Origin: Halomonas sp.
GTDB taxonomy: Bacteria; Pseudomonadota; Gammaproteobacteria; Pseudomonadales; Halomonadaceae
Assembly: GCF_014859505.1 (NCBI RefSeq)
Contig: NZ_JACUUD010000010.1
Location: forward strand, 1 to 47,712
DNA: 47,712 nt
Reading direction: 5' to 3'
Part shown: one piece after another, positions 7,386-38,039 of the stretch
How the letters are laid out: the number at the start of each line of letters is the position of its first letter
Position numbering within the stretch: position 1 is the stretch's first letter
Notes under the pieces: generated by a model
What the model was told of the DNA's origin: nothing
Database searches by the model: none
What the model saw: only the letters and a program-made list of their open reading frames with translations
Position numbers and translations under genes: made by a program

Positions 7386-7826
7386 TCAGAGGGTCATGAA
7401 GGGCGTGGCCTCGCCGTCGCGGAACTGGTAGACGTCCCAGTCGCCCTGCTTGGGCCCGGGCATGCCGGGGGTGCCGATGGGCATGCCGGCCAGGCCGATG
7501 CCGCGGGTGTCGGGGCGCTCCTCGAAGAGCTTCTCCAGCGCCTCGAAGGGCACGTGCCCCTCGATGGCGTAGCCGCCCATCTGGATGGTATGGCAGGAGC
7601 CCAGGCCATAGGGCAGCCCGACGCGCTGCTTTATCTTGCCCACCTCGATATCGTCGACGATCTTCACCGTGACCCCGCGGGCCTCGAGCTGGCGGGCGTA
7701 CTCGTCGCAGCAGCCACACTGGGGGTTCTTGTACATCGTCGCCTCGTCGGGCAGGGCGGCGTGGGCGGTGCCGGCGCCCAGCAGCAAGGCGGCGGAGAGC
7801 AGGAGAGTGGAGCCTGTGCGGTTCAT
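7386..7826 (-). CDS. DUF411 domain-containing metal-binding protein
   Basis: Signal peptide then MYKNPQCGCCDEYARQLEARG...GLGSCHTIQMGGYAIEGHVPFEALEKLF, typical DUF411. Confidence 0.9.
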   Translation of the reverse strand: MNRTGSTLLLSAALLLGAGTAHAALPDEATMYKNPQCGCCDEYARQLEARGVTVKIVDDIEVGKIKQRVGLPYGLGSCHTIQMGGYAIEGHVPFEALEKLFEERPDTRGIGLAGMPIGTPGMPGPKQGDWDVYQFRDGEATPFMTL

Positions 7827-7984
7827 GAGCGGGCCTCCGGAAGGTCGCGGGACGTGGGGCGGGAGGTGAACAGGTACTTGGTGAGCGCGGCGATGCCGAG
7901 GCCGAGCAGGGACAGCATGGCGACGGGCATCAGCCAGCCCAGCCAGGACAGGTTGCCCATCAGGGCGAGGCAGTTGTTGAGCAT
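7823..7984 (-). CDS. 53-aa small membrane protein
   Basis: Manual translation MLNNCLALMGNLSWLGWLMPVAMLSLLGLGIAALTKYLFTSRPTSRDLPEARS; SD AGGAGATACTCCC; stop overlaps the DUF411 start (TCATGA). Confidence 0.6.
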   Translation of the reverse strand: MLNNCLALMGNLSWLGWLMPVAMLSLLGLGIAALTKYLFTSRPTSRDLPEARS

Positions 7985-8066
7985 GGGAGTATCTCCTGAC
8001 GAACGGTTACGAATGGGTCGGGAAGGCGCACGGCCTTCGGGGCGGAGAGGTCCGCCGGGCGTTCGG

Positions 8067-8384
8067 TCAGGCCCTGGGAGGGCGGCGGGGGGGCAAGGTG
8101 CGGTGGGCGATCACAGCCAGCGCCGGGGCGAAGGCCGGGAAGCGGTGAGCGGCCGTGGCCAGGTCGATGGCGGGTGGCAGCGCCGCGCAGCTGGCGCAGC
8201 GAGGCTCGTCCGGCGTGTCGCCGTCGAGCAGCTGCGCCGGCGCGGCGAGCCCGCAGTCGGCCTGGTGGCTCTCCATGGCGCCATGGCTCGAGAGGCTGGT
8301 CACCGCCAGCAGCAGCGCGAGGAGCAGGGCCAGCAGGCGGCCTCCTCCTGCGCTGTGCCTTGATGCGATGACGGTGCGAGTCAT
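8067..8384 (-). CDS. small exported protein, DUF2946-like (CxxC, C-terminal RPPRA)
   Basis: Signal-peptide-like N-terminus, CASC motif, LPPRRPPRA tail. Confidence 0.55.
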   Translation of the reverse strand: MTRTVIASRHSAGGGRLLALLLALLLAVTSLSSHGAMESHQADCGLAAPAQLLDGDTPDEPRCASCAALPPAIDLATAAHRFPAFAPALAVIAHRTLPPRRPPRA

Positions 8385-8468
8385 GACGATGCCTCCTGGA
8401 TGATGGTGTCAGGATGCCGCGTCGGCAGCGCCTGCGTATTGACCCAGGGCAACTTCCCGGCGGGCCGC

Positions 8469-8648
8469 TCACTCCTCGTGGCGATGGCCGTGCCGGTGCA
8501 GGAAAAGATGCATGCCGAGGCAGAGCCCCATGGGGAGCAGCAGCCAGGTGCCAGCGCCAAAGGGGTTGCCGCGCCACAGCACGATGAGCATGGCCACCCC
8601 CATCAGCACCAGGCAGGCGGTCATCATTGCGTGGTGCAGGCGGTTCAT
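8469..8648 (-). CDS. 59-aa DUF2933-like small membrane protein with His-rich tail
   Basis: Manual translation MNRLHHAMMTACLVLMGVAMLIVLWRGNPFGAGTWLLLPMGLCLGMHLFLHRHGHRHEE; start overlaps copA stop (ATGA). Confidence 0.6.
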   Translation of the reverse strand: MNRLHHAMMTACLVLMGVAMLIVLWRGNPFGAGTWLLLPMGLCLGMHLFLHRHGHRHEE

Positions 8649-11155
8649 CGGGTATCTCCTTGCGGGTTCGTGCGGGTGAAGCCCCGCTTGAGCAGCAGCG
8701 AGTTGCCGATCACCGAGAGCGAGCTGGCGGTCATGGCGATCACGCCGATCATGGGGTGCAGCAGGCCGATGGCGGCGATGGGAATGGCCGCCACGTTGTA
8801 GGCGCTGGCCCAGATCAGGTTCTGGACGATCTTGCCGAAGGTGGCGCGGCTGAGGTGCATCGCCTCCACCACGCTGGTCAGCTCGCCGCGCACCAGGGTG
8901 ACGTCGGCGGCCTCGATGGCCACGTCGGCCCCGGCGCCGATGGCGATGCCGACGTTGGCCTGCTTCAGCGCCGCGGCGTCGTTGATGCCGTCGCCCACCA
9001 TGGCCACGTGGTTGCCGTGCTTCGCCTGCAGCGCGCGGATGGCATCGACCTTGCCCTCCGGCAGCACGCCGGCCTGGACCTCGTCGATGCCGACTTCCTC
9101 GGCCACGGCCCGGGCGGCGCGCTCGTTGTCGCCAGTGATCATCACCACGTGCAGGCCGAGGTCATGCATCCCGCGGATGGCCTCGATCGATTCCTGCTTG
9201 AGGGTATCGGCCACGGCCACCAGGCCGAGCGCCTGGCCGTCGGCGGCGACGATCACCACGGTGCGTCCCTTGGCCTCGAGCTCGTCCATGGCGTCATCCA
9301 GGGCCTCGAGGCCGGTCACGCCTTCTTCTTCCAGCAACCGGCGATTGCCGATCAGCACCGTTTCGTTGCCTACCTTGCCGGAAACGCCGCGTGCCCCGGT
9401 GGAGCGGAACTCGCTGACCTCACCGGGTTTCACGTCGCGCTCCCGGGCACCGTCGACGATGGCTCGGGCGATGGGGTGCTCCGAGGCGTTCTCCACGCTC
9501 GCCGCCAGCGTCAGCAGGCGGTTTTCGTCGACGCCCTCGGCGTTGACGGCCTCGGTGAGCGTCGGCTCGCCGCGGGTGATGGTGCCGGTCTTGTCCAGCA
9601 CCATGACCTTGATGTCCTTGAAGGTCTGGATGGCCTCGCCGGAGCGGATCAGGATGCCGCGCTCGGCGCCGATGCCGGAACCCACCATCAGCGCCGTGGG
9701 CGTAGCCAGGCCCAGGGCGCAGGGGCAGGCGATGACCAGCACGGCCACCGCGGCCAGTATCGCCAGCACCGGGGTGGCGGCCTCGGGGTTCACCCAGGGC
9801 AGGAAGGTCGCGCCCCAGTCGAGGACAGGGCGCAGGGCCTCCGGGAACAGCGCCCAGACGATCAGGCTGGCCAGGGCGATCAGCAGCACCGCCGGCACGA
9901 AGCGCCCGGTCATGCGGTCGGCAAACTCCTGGATCGGCACCCGGGACCCCTGGGCTTGGTCGATCAGGCGCACCACCTGGGAGAGGAAGGTATCGCCGCC
10001 GACCCGAGTCGCCTTGACCCGCAGGCGCCCCTCCTTGTTGATGGTGGCACCGATCACGCTGTCCCCGGTGCTCTTGTAGACCGGTATCGACTCACCCGTG
10101 GCGATGGACTCGTCGAGATGGCTCTCGCCCTCGACCACCTCGCCGTCGGTGGGGATCTTGTCGCCGGGGCGCACGATCATGATGTCTCCGGGCGCCAGCT
10201 CCTTCACCGGCACCTCGACCTCCTCGCCATCACGCTCGACGCGCGCCGTCTTGGCGCCCAGGGTCATCAGGCGGCGGATGGCCTGGGAGGCGCGCCCCTT
10301 GGCCAATGCCTCCAGGTATCGGCCCAGCAGGTGGAAGGTCATGATGGTGGCAGCCATCTCGATGAACGAGGTCATGGGGTAGACGAAGCCGACCAGGCCG
10401 ATCAGGTAGGGCGGCAGGCTGCCCATGGAGATCAGCACATCCATGTTGAAGGTGCCGTTCTTCAACGAGCGCCAGGTCGACCTGTGGGTGGCGATGCCGC
10501 CGTAGAGGAATACCACCGGGAAGGCCAGCACAGCGACGATGGCCAGGTAGCCGGGAATCGGCTGCCAGAACATGTGCGGTATCATCAGCAGCATGATCAG
10601 GATGGTGGGCACAGCGGCGATGATCAGCCGCTTGCGCGCCTGGGCGAGGTAGGCCTCCTCGATCTCGGCGTCGCCGTCGGCGTCCTCCGCCTCGTCGGCC
10701 TGCACGGCGGCCACGTCATAGCCGGCGCCTTCCACGGCGCGCTTCAGGTCGTCGCCGTCGGGGCCATCCGTGGCAACGGAGACCAAGACACGGTGACTGG
10801 CGATATTGGTCTCGATCTCGTTCACGCCATCGAGGCGTTCGAGCGTCTTGCGCACGATGCCAGCACAGTGGTCGCTGCCCATGCCGGGCACCGTCAGCCG
10901 CACCTGGCGCTTCTGGGAGCCGCCGCCGCTCACGGCGGCCACGTCATAGCCCGCCCCCTCGACGGCCTTCTTCAAGGCGTCGCCGTCGGGCCCACCTTCC
11001 TCGATGGTCACGCGCACATGGTGGTTGGCGATATTGGTCTTTATCTCGCCTACGCCATTGTGGCGTTCGAGCGTCTTGCGCACGATGCCGGCGCAGTGAT
11101 CGCTGCCCATGCCGGGCACCGTCAGGGTGATCGTTCTGGACCTGGTGTCACTCAT
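8645..11155 (-). CDS. copA: copper-translocating P1B-type ATPase with two N-terminal HMA domains
   Basis: CPC in AVLVIACPCALGLATPTALMVG, DKTGTITRGEPT, MVGDGINDAAALKQANVGIAIG, YN and MxxSS TM motifs of Cu(+)-ATPases; two GMGSDHCAGIV HMA domains. Confidence 0.93.
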   Translation of the reverse strand: MSDTRSRTITLTVPGMGSDHCAGIVRKTLERHNGVGEIKTNIANHHVRVTIEEGGPDGDALKKAVEGAGYDVAAVSGGGSQKRQVRLTVPGMGSDHCAGIVRKTLERLDGVNEIETNIASHRVLVSVATDGPDGDDLKRAVEGAGYDVAAVQADEAEDADGDAEIEEAYLAQARKRLIIAAVPTILIMLLMIPHMFWQPIPGYLAIVAVLAFPVVFLYGGIATHRSTWRSLKNGTFNMDVLISMGSLPPYLIGLVGFVYPMTSFIEMAATIMTFHLLGRYLEALAKGRASQAIRRLMTLGAKTARVERDGEEVEVPVKELAPGDIMIVRPGDKIPTDGEVVEGESHLDESIATGESIPVYKSTGDSVIGATINKEGRLRVKATRVGGDTFLSQVVRLIDQAQGSRVPIQEFADRMTGRFVPAVLLIALASLIVWALFPEALRPVLDWGATFLPWVNPEAATPVLAILAAVAVLVIACPCALGLATPTALMVGSGIGAERGILIRSGEAIQTFKDIKVMVLDKTGTITRGEPTLTEAVNAEGVDENRLLTLAASVENASEHPIARAIVDGARERDVKPGEVSEFRSTGARGVSGKVGNETVLIGNRRLLEEEGVTGLEALDDAMDELEAKGRTVVIVAADGQALGLVAVADTLKQESIEAIRGMHDLGLHVVMITGDNERAARAVAEEVGIDEVQAGVLPEGKVDAIRALQAKHGNHVAMVGDGINDAAALKQANVGIAIGAGADVAIEAADVTLVRGELTSVVEAMHLSRATFGKIVQNLIWASAYNVAAIPIAAIGLLHPMIGVIAMTASSLSVIGNSLLLKRGFTRTNPQGDTR
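10834..11126 (-). repeat. intragenic tandem duplication encoding the two HMA domains of CopA (228-bp period)
   Basis: Identical 28-mer GGCGTTCGAGCGTCTTGCGCACGATGCC at 10834-10861 and 11062-11089, plus shared CGCTGCCCATGCCGGGCACCGTCAG downstream. Confidence 0.8.
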
Positions 11156-28936: not shown

Positions 28937-28989
28937 GGCGAGATCTCGTCAATGACGAGATCTCGTTGAAAGATTGACGATTTCTCGTC
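28937..28989. promoter_or_regulatory. three palindromic candidate enhancer sites for the sigma-54 activator
   Basis: GGCGAGATCTCGTC (28937-28950), GACGAGATCTCGTT (28954-28967), GACGATTTCTCGTC (28976-28989). Confidence 0.65.
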
Positions 28990-29042
28990 TTTGGCGCGCG
29001 CCTTGTATGGAAGGGGGGATCCATTGCTGCGAGACCCTCGCC

Positions 29043-30959
<1,917 letters not shown>

Positions 30960-30968
30960 GCGCGCCGC

Positions 30969-31883
30969 CTATCCCCGAAGCCTTGCGAGCAGGCGTTGCC
31001 ACCAGCGGGGGGAGGGAGGCGCCGGCGGTGCCGGCATCAGTGTCTCTCTCGGCCGTTCGAGGAAATCGGCGATGGGGTCGACCTGGCTCGCCCGGTCGAG
31101 CATGGGGGCGTGGCCACAGCCGGGCACCTCCAGCGTGACCAGGCCCGGTTGGGCCTCGGCCATCTTCGCCACGCTGTCCCGGCGCAGCAGCGGGGAGTCG
31201 GCGCCGCGCACCACCATGAGCGGGCAGCGGATGGCGCGCCAGTCGGCCCAGGTGTCGCGGGGGGTGTCGTGGATGAATTGCTCGCCGATGCGGGGATCAA
31301 AGTGGTAGGTCCAGCTGCCGTCGGGCAGCCGGCGTGCGCTGCCCAGGGCCAGCCGCCGCCAGGCGTCGTCGCTGTCGATGCCGAACCCGACATAGTGCTG
31401 GCGCAGCTCGGCCTCAAGGTCGCCGAAGCGGGTGAAGCGGTGGGGGGCGGCGAAGTAGCGGCCCAGGTCGGCCAGCCCCTGGGGGTCCAGCTCCGGGCCC
31501 ACATCGTTGAGCACCAGCCGCTCGAGGCGCGGGGCCGTCTCGGAGTCCGCCGCCAGCAGCATGCCGATCAGCCCCCCCATGGATGTGCCTACCCAGGGCA
31601 CACTGTCGAGCCCGAAGTGGTCGAGCAGGGCGATGGCCAGTGTCGTGTAGCGCGAGTAGAGGTAGTCCTGGGCGGGAAAGAGCGGCCAGCCCGAGAGGCC
31701 TCGCCCCGGGGTGTCGGGAGCGAGCACTCGCCAGGTGGGGCCCAGCGCCCGGGCGAAGTCCTCAAAATCGCCGCCATGGCGGGCCAGGCCGTGCCAGGCC
31801 ATGACCGTTCTGGTCGCCTCGGGGTGCCAGATGCGCACCGCGACCTCCAGCTGCTCGACCCTTACCAGTTCCAGCGCATCCAT
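30969..31883 (-). CDS. alpha/beta hydrolase
   Basis: WHGLARHGGDFEDFARAL, VPWVGTSMGGLIGMLLA nucleophile elbow, CGHAPMLDRASQV catalytic His. Confidence 0.88.
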   Translation of the reverse strand: MDALELVRVEQLEVAVRIWHPEATRTVMAWHGLARHGGDFEDFARALGPTWRVLAPDTPGRGLSGWPLFPAQDYLYSRYTTLAIALLDHFGLDSVPWVGTSMGGLIGMLLAADSETAPRLERLVLNDVGPELDPQGLADLGRYFAAPHRFTRFGDLEAELRQHYVGFGIDSDDAWRRLALGSARRLPDGSWTYHFDPRIGEQFIHDTPRDTWADWRAIRCPLMVVRGADSPLLRRDSVAKMAEAQPGLVTLEVPGCGHAPMLDRASQVDPIADFLERPRETLMPAPPAPPSPRWWQRLLARLRG

Positions 31884-32011
31884 TCCCTTTGCTCCGTTTT
31901 CGGGGTTGTGTCGCCGCCTCGGAGCAGCTTAGCGGCGGACCGGGCTCGGGTCGAGATGGCAGGAATTCTATACAAGTCTTGATCAATACTTATTCTATGT
32001 ATAATATTCAG

Positions 32012-32110
32012 TGAGGGTTCGTTAACCCTGCTCTTGAAATGACCTGTCTCTCGTTTCAAGTCCCGTCTGTACCAACCCTGCTTGACCGCCCCGCCCCGGG
32101 CGGTTTTTTT
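32012..32110 (+). ncRNA. candidate sRNA with own promoter, two 5' hairpins and intrinsic terminator
   Basis: TATAAT at 32000-32005; AGGGTT-CGTT-AACCCT (32014-32029); CTTGAAA-N14-TTTCAAG (32033-32060); ACCGCCC-CGCCCC-GGGCGGT + T7 (32085-32110). Confidence 0.5.
32085..32110 (+). terminator. rho-independent terminator
   Basis: ACCGCCC/GGGCGGT stem, T7 tract. Confidence 0.85.
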
Positions 32111-32149
32111 CTGCCGTCCAGCGGATCGGAAGGGGAAAAGTGACTAGTA

Positions 32150-32173
32150 TACATACATGAATGTAGCTATAAT
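32150..32173 (+). promoter_or_regulatory. TetR-type operator overlapping promoter of RND operon
   Basis: TACATACATGAATGTA (32150-32165) directly upstream of a perfect TATAAT (32168-32173). Confidence 0.6.
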
Positions 32174-32261
32174 TCAGGCCTGTTTTCGACCCGCTCGACG
32201 GCGCTTTCCCCCGCCCCCGCCCCCGGGCCCACCGACGAGATCACCCAGAGTGGAGACTTCC

Positions 32262-33494
32262 ATGCGATTGGCACCCCTGAAGGGGCACAGGCCCCTGACA
32301 CTTCTGGCCCTGGCCGGCCTGATGGCCGTCGGACTGTCCGCCTGTGGGCAGGACAACGACGAGGCCGGAGGGCCCGGCGGCGGAGGTGACCGCCCGCCGC
32401 CCCCGGTCGTGGTGGTCGCCGTGGAGCCGCGCAGCGTGGAGGTGATCGTGGAGTATGCGGCCCGCGTGCGAGGGTCCCGCGAGGTGGAGGTGCGCGCCCG
32501 GGTCGAAGGCATCCTCGAGGAGCGCCTCTACACCGAGGGTCAGGTGGTCAGCGAGGGGGATGCGCTGTTCCGGATTGATCGCGAGCCCTACGAGATCGAA
32601 CTCAAGCGCGCCGAGGCGGAGCGCGCCAACGCCCGCGCCGAGCTGAACCAGGCCAACCGCGAGTGGCAGCGGATCTCCACCCTGTTCAACCAGAATGCGG
32701 TCAGCGAGCGCGAGCGTGACAGCTCGCTCTCCGCCCGGGAACTGGCCGAGGCGCGCCTGGCCCTTACCGAGGCCGGCGTGGCCAACGCCGAGCTCAACCT
32801 CAGCTACACCGAGGTTCAGGCGCCCCTTGCCGGGCTGACCGGGCTTGAGAGCTTCCCCGAGGGCAGCCTGATCGAGCGCGGCACCCTGCTGACCAGCGTG
32901 ACCCAGCAGGACCCGGTCCATGTGCGCTTCTCCCTGCCGGAGCAAGATGCCGCCCTGCAGCGTGCCGCGCGCCGCGCCATGACCGATGCCCAGGCGGAGG
33001 CGCCTCGCGAGGCCTGGCTGACCCTGCCCGACGGCAGCGAGTATGAGGAGATGGGTCAGATCGATTTCACCGACAGCACCATCGACCCCCGCACCGGCAG
33101 CGTCTCGGCTCGGGCCGTCTTCCCCAACCCGGAGGGCATGGTGGTGCCGGGCCAGTTCGTGCGGGTGCGCGTGCTGGTGCAGGAGCTCGACGATATCTTC
33201 CTGGTGCCCCAGGAGGCGGTGGGCCAGGGCGCCGAGGGGCCGCGGATCTTCGTGATCGTGGAGGACACCGCCTACGCTCGCAGCGTGGAGCTGGGCCCCA
33301 TCGTCGACAATCGCCAGGTGGTGCTCTCGGGCCTCGAGGCCGACGACCGCATCGTGGTCAGTGGCCAGGTGACCCTGCAGGACGGCATGCCGGTGCAGGT
33401 CAGCGTGGCGGACTCCGCCGAGGAGGTCGTTGACGACGAGACGGCCGGCGAGGTGTCGCTGGACGACGAGCTCGCCGCTGACGAGGAGGCGTGA
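32262..33494 (+). CDS. RND efflux periplasmic adaptor (AcrA/MexA family)
   Basis: Lipobox VGLSAC; EVEVRARVEGILEERLYTEGQVVSEGDALFRIDREPYEIEL; coiled-coil; VPGQFVRVRV. Confidence 0.93.
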   Translation: MRLAPLKGHRPLTLLALAGLMAVGLSACGQDNDEAGGPGGGGDRPPPPVVVVAVEPRSVEVIVEYAARVRGSREVEVRARVEGILEERLYTEGQVVSEGDALFRIDREPYEIELKRAEAERANARAELNQANREWQRISTLFNQNAVSERERDSSLSARELAEARLALTEAGVANAELNLSYTEVQAPLAGLTGLESFPEGSLIERGTLLTSVTQQDPVHVRFSLPEQDAALQRAARRAMTDAQAEAPREAWLTLPDGSEYEEMGQIDFTDSTIDPRTGSVSARAVFPNPEGMVVPGQFVRVRVLVQELDDIFLVPQEAVGQGAEGPRIFVIVEDTAYARSVELGPIVDNRQVVLSGLEADDRIVVSGQVTLQDGMPVQVSVADSAEEVVDDETAGEVSLDDELAADEEA

Positions 33495-36400
33495 TGCTCA
33501 GGTTCTTCATCGATCGACCGATCTTCTCGTCGGTCATCTCCATCATCATCGTGCTGGCCGGCCTCGCCGCGCTGCGCATGCTGCCCGTGGAGCAGTATCC
33601 CGACGTGGTGCCGCCCCAGGTGGTGGTGCAGGCCGCCTACCCCGGCGCCAGTGCCGAGGTGATCGCCGAGGCGGTGGCCGCTCCCCTGGAGCAGGAGATC
33701 AATGGCGTCGACAACATGCTCTACATGGAATCGGCCTCCACCGACTCCGGCAGCCTCCAGATCACCGTCTCCTTCGCGATGGGCACCGACCCCGACCAGG
33801 CCGCCATCAACGTCAACAACCGGGTCCAGGCCGCCACCGCTCGCCTTCCCCAGTCGGTGCGCGACCAGGGTGTGCGCGTCGAGGCGCGCTCCACCAACAT
33901 CCTGATGGTGCCGGTGCTCTTCTCGCCGGACGGCAGCCGCGATGTGCTGTTCATGTCCAACTATGCGCTGCTCAACGTGCTCGACGAGCTGGTGCGTATT
34001 CCGGGCGTGGGCGACGCCTCGCTGTTCGGCGCCCAGGACTACTCCATGCGCATCTGGCTCAGCCCCGACAAGCTGGCCCAGTATGACCTGACCCCCAACG
34101 ATGTGGCCTCGGCAATCCGCGAGCAGAACGCCCAGTTCGCCGCCGGCAGCCTGGGCGCCGAGCCCTCGCCCGAGGGCCAGGCCTATACCTTCACGGTGAC
34201 CACCCGCGGCCAGCTCTCCGATCCCGAAGAGTTCGAGGCCATCATCCTGCGCGCCGAGCAGGACGGCAGCACCCTGCGCCTGGGGGATGTGGCCCGCGCC
34301 GAGCTGGGCTCCCAGAACTACGCCTTCTCGGCCACCTACAACGGCCAGAACGCCGTGCCCATGGGCGTCTACCTGCAGCCGGGCGCCAACGCCCTGGAGA
34401 CCGCCGAGGCGGTGCACGAGGCGCTGGAAGACATGGCCGGGCGCTTTCCTGAGGGGCTCACCTACACGGTGCCCTACGACACCACCGAGTTCGTCGAGAT
34501 CTCCATCCGCGAGGTGTTCATCACCCTGCTGATTGCCGTGGCGCTAGTGGTGGTGGTGACCTTCCTGTTCCTGCAGCACCTGCGGGCTACCCTGATCCCG
34601 GTGGTGGCCATCCCGGTGTCGCTGATCGGTACCTTTGCCGGCATGCTGGCCTTCGGCTTCTCGGTCAACCTGCTGACGTTGTTCGGCCTGGTGCTGGCCA
34701 TCGGCATCGTGGTGGACAACGCCATCATCGTGCTGGAAAACGTCGACCGGCTGATCAACGAGCAGGGCATGAAGGCCCGCGAGGCCTCCATCGAGACCAT
34801 GAAGCAGGTGGCCGGCGCGGTGGTCTCCTCCACCCTGGTACTGGTGGCGGTCTTCGCCCCGGTGACCTTCCTGGGTGGCCTGACCGGCGAGCTCTATCGC
34901 CAGTTCGCGGTGACCATCGCGGTCTCGGTGGTGGTCTCCGGCGTGGTGGCCCTGACCCTGACCCCGGCCATGTGTGCGATGCTGCTGGACAAGCAGACAC
35001 ACAGGGTGGCCAGGCCCTTCCAGTGGTTCAACGCCGGCTTCGATCGGCTTACCAACGGCTTCAGTTGGCTGGTGAGCAAGCTGCTGCGCCACGCGGTGAT
35101 CGGCGTGGTGCTCTTCATCGGCGTGATCGCCGCGACGCTGTTCACCATGTCGCGCCTGCCCCCGGGGCTCGTGCCCCAGGAGGACCAGGGTGTGGCGCTG
35201 GTGGTCTACCAGCTGCCCCAGGTATCGGCGCTGCCGCGCACCGAGGCGGTGCGTGACGAGGTCTCGGCGATGCTGCTGGAGATGGACGAGGTCGACGAGT
35301 TCACCTCCTTCGCCGGCTTCGACATCATCGCCGGCGCCCTGCGCACCAATACCGGGGTGGGTTTCGCCAACCTCTCGGACTGGAGCGAACGGGAAGGCCC
35401 CGGGCAGGACGCCCAGTCGCTGGCCGGCCGGATCATGGGCATGGGCGGCGGCATTCCCGAGGCGCTGGTGATCGCCTTCACCCCGCCGCCGATCATGGGG
35501 CTGTCGCTGACCGGTGGCGTGGAGGGCTACCTGCAGGTGCGCGGCGACGCCACCACCCAGCAGATCGCCGACCTGGCCAACCGGCTTGCCGCCGCGGCCA
35601 ACGAGCGCCCGGAGCTGACCAACGCCCGCACCACCCTGGATACCACGATCCCGCGCTATCGCGCCGAGCTGGACCGGGAGAAGGCCCGCGCCATGGGGGT
35701 GCCTGTCAACGAGGTGTTTGCCGCCATGCAGAGCACCTTCGGCTCCATGTACGTGAACGACTTCACCCTCTCGGGGCGCAACTGGCAGGTGAACCTGCAG
35801 TCCGAGGGCGAGTTCCGCAGCCAGCCCGAGGATCTCAACAAGGTCTTCGTGCGCTCCCAGGGCGGCGAGATGATCCCGCTCTCCTCGGTGGTGACCCTGA
35901 CCCGCGAGTCGGGGGCGGACATCTTCAACCGCTACAACGTCTACTCGGCTGCCAAGTTCCTGGCCGACGCCGCGCCGGGCTTCACCACCGGCCAGGCCAA
36001 GGACGCCATGGACCAGGTCGCCGCAGAGGTGCTGGAGGGCGGTAACGTCCAGCTGGGCTGGACCGGCGAGGCCTTTCAGCTCGACGCCGCAGCCGGTGCC
36101 GGCGCCCTGGCCTTCGGGCTGGGCCTGCTGATGGTGTTCCTGATCCTGTCCGCCCAGTACGAGCGCTGGACGCTGCCCCTGGCGGTGGCCACCGCGGTGC
36201 CCTTCGGGGTGCTGGGGGCGGCGCTGGCCGCCATGCTCCGCGGCTTCCCCAATGACATCTACTTCCAGGTGGGCCTGCTGGTGCTGATCGGCCTGGCGGC
36301 CAAGAACGCCATCCTGATAGTGGAATTCGCCGCCCAGAACCGCCGCACCGGGATGAGCTCCACCGAGGCCGCCCTGGGCGCGGCGAGGCAGCGCTTTCGT

Positions 36401-36637
36401 GCCATCCTGATGACGGCGCTGACCTTCATCATCGGCACCCTGCCGCTGGTGTTCGCCACCGGTGCCGGTGCCAACAGCCGCCAGGAGATCGGCACCGTGG
36501 TGGTAGGCGGCATGATCCTTGCCAGCTCGCTCGCGCTGATCTTCGTGCCGCTGGCCTACAAGGTGCTGGAGGACCTGGTGACCTGGCGCCGCGAGCGCAA
36601 GGCCAGCCGCCTGGACAAGGAGGTTCCCCATGCATAA
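33494..36637 (+). CDS. HAE1-family RND efflux permease (AcrB/MexB family)
   Basis: MLRFFIDRPIFSSVISIIIVLAGLAALRMLPVEQYPDVVPPQVVVQAAYPGAS; VVDNAIIVLENVDR in TM4; QVGLLVLIGLAAKNAILIVEFA. Confidence 0.96.
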   Translation: MLRFFIDRPIFSSVISIIIVLAGLAALRMLPVEQYPDVVPPQVVVQAAYPGASAEVIAEAVAAPLEQEINGVDNMLYMESASTDSGSLQITVSFAMGTDPDQAAINVNNRVQAATARLPQSVRDQGVRVEARSTNILMVPVLFSPDGSRDVLFMSNYALLNVLDELVRIPGVGDASLFGAQDYSMRIWLSPDKLAQYDLTPNDVASAIREQNAQFAAGSLGAEPSPEGQAYTFTVTTRGQLSDPEEFEAIILRAEQDGSTLRLGDVARAELGSQNYAFSATYNGQNAVPMGVYLQPGANALETAEAVHEALEDMAGRFPEGLTYTVPYDTTEFVEISIREVFITLLIAVALVVVVTFLFLQHLRATLIPVVAIPVSLIGTFAGMLAFGFSVNLLTLFGLVLAIGIVVDNAIIVLENVDRLINEQGMKAREASIETMKQVAGAVVSSTLVLVAVFAPVTFLGGLTGELYRQFAVTIAVSVVVSGVVALTLTPAMCAMLLDKQTHRVARPFQWFNAGFDRLTNGFSWLVSKLLRHAVIGVVLFIGVIAATLFTMSRLPPGLVPQEDQGVALVVYQLPQVSALPRTEAVRDEVSAMLLEMDEVDEFTSFAGFDIIAGALRTNTGVGFANLSDWSEREGPGQDAQSLAGRIMGMGGGIPEALVIAFTPPPIMGLSLTGGVEGYLQVRGDATTQQIADLANRLAAAANERPELTNARTTLDTTIPRYRAELDREKARAMGVPVNEVFAAMQSTFGSMYVNDFTLSGRNWQVNLQSEGEFRSQPEDLNKVFVRSQGGEMIPLSSVVTLTRESGADIFNRYNVYSAAKFLADAAPGFTTGQAKDAMDQVAAEVLEGGNVQLGWTGEAFQLDAAAGAGALAFGLGLLMVFLILSAQYERWTLPLAVATAVPFGVLGAALAAMLRGFPNDIYFQVGLLVLIGLAAKNAILIVEFAAQNRRTGMSSTEAALGAARQRFRAILMTALTFIIGTLPLVFATGAGANSRQEIGTVVVGGMILASSLALIFVPLAYKVLEDLVTWRRERKASRLDKEVPHA

Positions 36638-38039
36638 GGCACTGCCTGTGCTGCTGCTCTCCACCGCCCTGCTGGCCGGCTGTGCCGTGGGGCCCGACTA
36701 CCGGGCCCCCGCGCTGGACCTGCCCGAGGAGTGGCCCGAGCATGTGCTGCTCTCCGCCGAGGCCCGCGCCGACTGGCAGCAGTGGTGGCGCCAGTTCGAG
36801 GATCCCTATCTGGACGGCCTGGTGGCGCGGGCGGTGGAGGATAACCTGGAACTGCGCCTGCAGCTGGCGCGGATCCAGGAGGCCCGGGCGAGGCTGGGGC
36901 TCACTCGCGCTGAGCAGCTCCCCTCGGTGAGCGCCCAGGCCGAGGCGGCTCGGGAGCGCACCCCGGGAACCCTGTCGCCCTTCGGCGAGAGTACCGACAA
37001 CACCTTCTCCCTGGCCGGCGTGCTCGACTACGAGATCGATCTCTGGGGGCGCCTGGCCCGTGAGCGAGAGGCCTCGGAGGCGCTGCTCGAACAGAGTGTC
37101 TTTGCCCACGACGCGGTGCGCCTGAACGTGATCGCCGACGTGGCGACCACCTACTTCGACCTGCGCAGCGCCGAGCGCCAGCTGCGCATCACCCGGGCCA
37201 CCGCGCAGTCCCGCGAGGAGACCTTCCGCCTCGAGCAGCTGCGTTTCGACGTGGGTGAGAGCGACGAACTGGCGTTGCGCCAGGCGCAGTCGGAGCTGGA
37301 GTCGACCCTGGCCCAGCTGCCGGGTCAGCGGGAGCGGGTGCGGGTGCTGGAAGGCGCCCTGGCGTTGCTGGTGGGCATGAGTCCCGCGGAGCTGATGAGC
37401 GAGCTGGACTTCGGCGATAACGATCTGGAGGCGATCTCCCTGCCCGACGGCATGCCGGCGGTGCTGCCCTCGGAGCTGCTCGCGCGTCGCCCCGATATCC
37501 GCTCCGCCGAGGCGGGGCTGGTCGCCGTCAATGCCGGCATCGGCGTGGCCGAGGCGAGCCGCCTGCCGCGCTTCAACCTGGGGGGGCTGCTGGGCAGCGC
37601 CGCCGGGGATGCCGGGGATCTCTTCACCTCGGCGGCCGGCACCTGGGGGCTCTCTGCCACGGTGATGGGCCCGCTGTTCGACTTCGGCCGCAGCGCTTCG
37701 CGCATCGAGACCGCCGAGGCCCTGGCCGAGCAGGCCGAGGTGCAGTACCGCGCCACCGTTGACCAGGCCTTCAATGAGGTACGCAACGCCCTGGTCACCT
37801 TCGAGGCCAGCGGCGAGCGCGTCGAGGCGATCCGCCGCCAGTTGACGGCCTTCGAGCGCACCCTGGAGCTGGCGGAGGTGCGCTACCGGGAGGGCTTCGT
37901 CGGCTTCATCGAGCTGCTCGATGCCCAGCGCGCCACCCTCGCCGCCGAATTGGCGCTCTCCGAGGCGATGCGCGACCGCCTGACCGCCACCGCCACGCTG
38001 TTCAAGGCGCTGGGCGGCGGCTGGCAGGTCGACGGCTGA
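36630..38039 (+). CDS. outer-membrane efflux lipoprotein (OprM/NodT family)
   Basis: Lipobox LLAGCAVGPDYRAPAL; LLARRPDIRSAEAGLVAVNAGIGVAEASRLPRFNL. Confidence 0.95.
   Translation: MHKALPVLLLSTALLAGCAVGPDYRAPALDLPEEWPEHVLLSAEARADWQQWWRQFEDPYLDGLVARAVEDNLELRLQLARIQEARARLGLTRAEQLPSVSAQAEAARERTPGTLSPFGESTDNTFSLAGVLDYEIDLWGRLAREREASEALLEQSVFAHDAVRLNVIADVATTYFDLRSAERQLRITRATAQSREETFRLEQLRFDVGESDELALRQAQSELESTLAQLPGQRERVRVLEGALALLVGMSPAELMSELDFGDNDLEAISLPDGMPAVLPSELLARRPDIRSAEAGLVAVNAGIGVAEASRLPRFNLGGLLGSAAGDAGDLFTSAAGTWGLSATVMGPLFDFGRSASRIETAEALAEQAEVQYRATVDQAFNEVRNALVTFEASGERVEAIRRQLTAFERTLELAEVRYREGFVGFIELLDAQRATLAAELALSEAMRDRLTATATLFKALGGGWQVDG

Follow-up and report, generated by a model that had tools for sequence, protein, structure and literature searches.

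A candidate small RNA gene of narrow distribution between a hydrolase gene and a tripartite-efflux operon in Halomonas

The trans-encoded, Hfq-associated small RNAs (sRNAs) of Gammaproteobacteria, among them PrrF, RyhB and Spot 42, have promoters of their own, are about 100 nt long, and combine stem-loops and an open region with an intrinsic terminator that carries a long U-tail. The candidate sRNA gene of Halomonas described here, which is intergenic between a hydrolase gene and an RND efflux pump operon (Table 1), is like this class in promoter, size, stem-loops, open region and terminator, and its genome encodes Hfq (TIGR02383, 99.9 bits against a cut-off of 61.7); it is unlike the class in having no sequence relation to its Rfam families. 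The window, i.e., the whole stretch of 47,712 nucleotides analysed (Halomonas sp., contig NZ_JACUUD010000010.1), holds no Rfam 15 family at the gathering score and likewise none at a relaxed threshold, which agrees with a first-pass annotation of the sequence that had recognised no known family. The best sub-threshold match to the sRNA, Hrs13 (RF02631), scores 17.3 bits, far under its gathering score of 52 bits, lies mainly in the terminator and leaves the upstream hairpin unmatched. A possible parallel, in function only, is SdsR, an sRNA of E. coli and Shigella that represses tolC (PMC6385377). As there, an sRNA is linked with tripartite efflux, in Halomonas by gene position alone; SdsR has no sequence match to the Halomonas sRNA. 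Text searches of the literature turned up no catalogue of Halomonas sRNAs, and the gene very probably represents a narrowly distributed, previously undescribed sRNA family of a well-known kind.

Table 1. Features of the sRNA locus and its neighbours, in window coordinates
Feature	Position	Strand	Basis or remark
Divergent alpha/beta-hydrolase gene	30969-31883	-	Pfam PF00561/PF12697; adjoins the sRNA in 9/9 carriers
TATACA (CTWTACA) element	31969-31974	not assigned	Ahead of the -35 box in aligned homologues
-35 box TTGATC, sRNA promoter	31979-31984	+	TTGAT in five aligned loci; TTGAA/TTGCA in other homologues
-10 box TAATAT, sRNA promoter	32002-32007	+	17 bp after the -35 box; spacing kept in homologues
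Predicted sRNA transcript, ~98 nt	32013-32110 (ends +/- a few bases)	+	Anatomy and conservation
Hairpin 1, AGGGTT-CGTT-AACCCT	32014-32029	+	Local hairpin possible in 9/9 homologues
Hairpin 2, CTTGAAATG...CGTTTCAAG	32033-32060	+	CTTGAAA 32033-32039, loop TGACCTGTCTCTCG, TTTCAAG 32054-32060; stem paired in 7/7 close homologues
Open region TCCCGTCTGTACCAACCCTGCT, proposed seed	32061-32082	+	Highest identity within the transcript
Intrinsic terminator, 7-bp G+C stem, 6-nt loop, seven T	32085-32110	+	ACCGCCC-CGCCCC-GGGCGGT 32085-32104, seven T 32104-32110; conserved
Pump promoter/operator CTAGTATACATACATGAATGTAGCTATAAT	32144-32176	+	Identity 0.92; outside the sRNA
RND membrane-fusion protein (HlyD-type), first pump operon gene	32262-33494	+	Pfam HlyD_D23
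Pump (AcrB-type), pump operon	33491-36637		Pfam ACR_tran
Outer membrane factor, pump operon	36630-38039		Pfam OEP

All the elements listed in the first-pass annotation are present in the sequence, at positions that were right to within a base or two. It had offered two readings of the -10 box, and both exist, with TATAAT (32000-32005, 15-bp spacer) overlapping TAATAT (17-bp spacer); because the TTGAT-17 bp-TAATAT-like arrangement is kept in homologues, we favour the latter over the 15-bp alternative. The promoter is weak by consensus and was not returned by a 9-of-12 consensus scan, so its support is comparative: the two boxes and their 17-bp spacing are retained in homologues, and the upstream gene is divergent, which, on sequence and comparative grounds, gives this intergenic sRNA the promoter of its own that had been claimed for it. 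Ahead of the -35 box, the TATACA element, which takes the form CTTTACA in two diverged homologues (G108 and G068), is possibly an upstream promoter element or, read in reverse as TGTATA, the -10 box of the hydrolase gene.

The predicted transcript ends in the sole terminator-like place between 30 and 34 kb (two overlapping forms against 0.9 expected), and since the adjacent upstream hydrolase gene lies on the minus strand and points away, this terminator, as proposed at first pass, ends no plus-strand coding gene. The layout of two hairpins and a strong terminator is borne out as well. Folding is stronger than chance would give, with a predicted energy of -35.0 kcal/mol for the 102-nt strand and of -21.3 +/- 2.9 kcal/mol for its shuffles (z = -4.65; 0/200 shuffles as low); the folds of the homologues also lie below their shuffles (z from -2.6 to -6.8), and the anatomy is common to all of them; the covariance-model match in the window copy covers 32010-32111. 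In the window copy, the fold of lowest predicted energy pairs the 5' AGGGTT with a distal AACCCT (32074-32079) instead of forming hairpin 1, and the same alternative is possible in G031, G003 and G062 (with both sides changed in G062). Since G008, G092 and G108 have it weakly or not at all, it is no feature of the family; a long-range pairing suggested by RNAalifold as the general fold was dropped, as it fails in the same three copies.

In favour of a gene, nine genomes keep the stretch from promoter to terminator as a unit, whereas its flanks are not conserved. Mean pairwise identity over five intact loci is 0.90 in the open core, 0.89 in the terminator, 0.82 in hairpin 2 and 0.80 in the -10 region, as against 0.41 in the promoter spacer, 0.50 in the gap to the pump promoter and 0.54 in the hydrolase leader. 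The homologues share the -35 box, the 17-bp spacer, the -10 box, hairpins 1 and 2, an open region of ~22 nt, and a terminator whose T-run is seven or longer. Hairpins are retained even where sequence is not: the arms of hairpin 1 are unrelated yet fold in the diverged G108 (GAAGCG/CGCTTC) and G068 (GGGAGG/CCTCCC), the latter of which also keeps the lower stem of hairpin 2 (CTTGAA/TTTCAAG). The seven closest copies are too alike for formal covariation to be measured or claimed, and the case for selection on sequence and structure in the relatives stands on the difference between the core and terminator (~0.9) and the flanks (0.41-0.54), together with the anatomy kept in G108 and G068. A stand-alone sRNA gene, as first proposed, is the best reading of these data, and we consider it very likely that the gene is real. 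It is, by comparison, very unlikely that the locus is a relic in which a terminator and promoter-like DNA persist without a functional transcript; the negative consensus scan and the lack of the sRNA in most of the genus would suit such a relic, but conservation as a unit in nine genomes, with the same anatomy in two very diverged copies, would not.

The same conservation would account for an open frame that might be taken for the coding sequence of a small protein. An ATG at 32039 opens the frame MTCLSFQVPSVPTL..., which reads MxxxSFQV[PL]SVPTL in eight copies and survives a 3-nt insertion in the loop of G062. Against an mRNA for this peptide stand the absence of a Shine-Dalgarno sequence, the position of the ATG inside hairpin 2, the lack of a stop codon before the end of the T-run in 7/8 copies, the absence of the ATG from G068, and the pattern of change itself, in which 7/9 third codon positions within the core never vary while residues one to five of the peptide are not conserved. 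We rejected this reading, which is improbable in the extreme; the best account of the frame is that it comes along with conservation at the nucleotide level.

The sRNA is present in 9/90 species genomes of the genus (Halomonas, including Billgrantia), as established by searching all 90 with the core pattern and by inspecting the region upstream of the hydrolase gene in the 76 that have a close hydrolase homologue; a first nucleotide search had given four strong matches beyond the window. The carriers are the window genome (G000), Billgrantia desiderata FB2 (G008), Halomonas sp. Y3 (G007), H. urumqiensis (G108), G003, G031, G062, G092 and the very diverged G068, and in all nine the sRNA has an alpha/beta-hydrolase gene on one side and tripartite-efflux genes on the other. 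Covariance-model scans of 275 family and 392 order genomes, run with Infernal's stricter filters so that very diverged copies could be missed, found no convincing copy beyond the carriers, only weak matches. The ones inspected comprised ordinary terminators, PrrF-like sRNAs with a Fur box and the 3' end of a fasciclin-domain gene, and were left uncounted, as were two further core-pattern matches in the genus (G076 and contig 18 of G092), which lie in unrelated sequence without hairpins. A scan of genome contigs returned six Halomonas or Billgrantia records and one of Paenibacillus, the last within chance expectation, and a search of the plasmid collection found no copy. This narrow spread, with nothing convincing outside the genus, counts against the sRNA reading.

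Two kinds of weak match deserve mention in their own right. In other Halomonadaceae genera, L136, L142, L147, L148 and L154 contain PrrF/RyhB-like candidates (from about 1501 on the match strand) that have the core CTCCTCATCATCAAGCGAGTC and a Fur-box-like promoter; they match the covariance model mostly through the terminator and are not homologous to the Halomonas sRNA. The 3' end of the fasciclin-domain gene (L158 330-560 in G007; L138, L139, L149) has a short CTGTACCAGTCCCTTGC or CTGTCCCTGCTTGC before a CCGCCC terminator, and its resemblance to the 3' end of the sRNA may reflect either common origin or chance.

The history of the locus appears to be partly one of movement. When 30 genomes are placed in a gyrB tree, six of the carriers (G000, G003, G007, G031, G062 and G092) form one clade with a support of 0.975, while G008, G068 and G108 lie elsewhere, adjoining non-carriers. 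The hydrolase protein of G008 is 94% identical to that of the window, as against 83% for gyrB DNA, which is no closer than that of non-carriers; this discrepancy makes lateral movement of the locus probable, and we conclude that it has probably occurred at least once. The copy in G068 (L052 2571-2685) is very diverged, with the core CCGTCTGCAATCCCCTGC, yet sits beside a hydrolase gene whose product is 93% identical to that of the window, a mismatch that would be explained either by recombination next to the sRNA or by fast change of the sRNA core.

The hydrolase side of the locus differs between carriers and non-carriers. In most genomes without the sRNA, a palindrome that is perfect or nearly so, GCTATGCTGC-NNN-GCAGCATAGC, stands ahead of the hydrolase gene, and it occurs with at most five mismatches in 54/67 upstream regions (the regions examined being window 31884-31945 and the hydrolase upstream regions in L031 and L051-L122); the nine carriers have it in eroded form, mostly as one half-site. 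When the sRNA and its divergent promoter arrived, the way in which the hydrolase gene is controlled may have changed. The distance from the hydrolase start to the pump operator is 265-381 bp in carriers and 76-247 bp in non-carriers. The window also carries, tail to tail with the hydrolase gene, a gene for a PAS-domain, sigma-54-dependent activator (28974-30959), and the same kind of protein is encoded at the corresponding place in G092 and G003.

On the other side, the sRNA is INDEPENDENCE from the pump, which has a conserved operator/promoter of its own behind the terminator. Comparable sites precede efflux genes in genomes without the sRNA. The pump operator/promoter is strongly conserved and palindromic, TATACATACATGAATGTAGCTATAAT, with a related AACATGCGACAATGTATGTA preceding tolC in other species, and resembles AcrR-type operators. 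These observations bear on whether the RNA might act in cis on the efflux operon, as a leader or attenuator, with read-through into the pump genes set by the pairing of AGGGTT with the proximal or the distal AACCCT. Such a leader would agree with the position of the sRNA upstream of tripartite-efflux genes in every case and with the choice between two pairings, each excluding the other, that the 5' arm of the window copy has. It is nonetheless quite unlikely: a promoter intervenes between the sRNA and the pump and is used also where the sRNA is lacking, the distal pairing fails in three copies (G008, G092 and G108), and the downstream gene varies from the RND fusion protein to a fusion protein of another type in G003 and to tolC in G108. 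In G007, moreover, a group II intron of ~2 kb with a reverse transcriptase (L123, about 7570-9500; Rfam group-II-D1D4-3) separates the two, starting shortly after the T-run of the sRNA and ending just before the pump promoter. Bacterial-C type introns go in immediately behind rho-independent terminators (PMC8919778, citing Robart et al. 2007), and, to judge by the Rfam model and the position, the G007 intron is probably of this type.

We return to the stand-alone gene, which most likely specifies a trans-acting sRNA with the open GUCUGUACCAACCCU as its seed, probably working with Hfq; transcription, Hfq binding, base pairing and the location of the seed are points that we infer rather than compute. 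The ~98-nt transcript would start at about 32013, from a sigma-70-type promoter that is directed away from the hydrolase gene, and the intrinsic terminator would end it at about 32110. Hairpins 1 and 2 would cap and protect the 5' part, while the conserved open stretch UCCCGUCUGUACCAACCCUGCU, which follows hairpin 2 and precedes the terminator, would base-pair with target mRNAs and so alter their translation or stability. Hfq would probably assist this pairing by binding the terminator stem and the U-tail, which has the length of Hfq-dependent sRNAs (about seven or more), with seven T here and at least seven in all homologues.

Base pairing is the mechanism that we consider likely. The core varies from C to U at two positions (CCC, CCU, CUU), changes through which pairing to a G in the target would persist and which fit base pairing, though they are only suggestive; on the other side, the proposed seed is partly paired by prediction in some copies. 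Pattern searches for targets gave nothing above control and hence name none: neither the reverse complement of the core nor GGTACAGR ahead of ATG yielded a shared extended site or an excess. That outcome, together with the conserved hairpins, would also suit an sRNA that acts on a protein rather than by mRNA pairing, such as an RNA-binding regulator that it might sequester as a decoy. We regard action on a protein as unlikely, as conservation peaks in the open region (0.90) and not in the loop of hairpin 2 (0.61), and the repeated GGA loops of the CsrA-decoy kind are absent from the homologue sequences.

If base pairing is the mechanism, the adjoining efflux genes make efflux or envelope mRNAs plausible targets, and we name these as a guess. 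A more elaborate proposal, which we put forward as unlikely, is that a lineage-restricted sRNA moves together with a partly mobile hydrolase-efflux locus and coordinates it, being co-regulated with the divergent hydrolase, whose upstream palindrome is eroded wherever the sRNA occurs. The two AACCCU copies would then compete for the 5' AGGGUU and so switch exposure of the seed, through which the sRNA would link efflux with envelope mRNAs elsewhere.

Without targets, the Halomonas sRNA would be one more orphan sRNA. For a genus that serves as an industrial chassis, it nevertheless offers an sRNA family that is defined and testable and whose candidate seed is clear; related species that have or lack the gene allow comparison, and a post-transcriptional link to tripartite efflux is possible.
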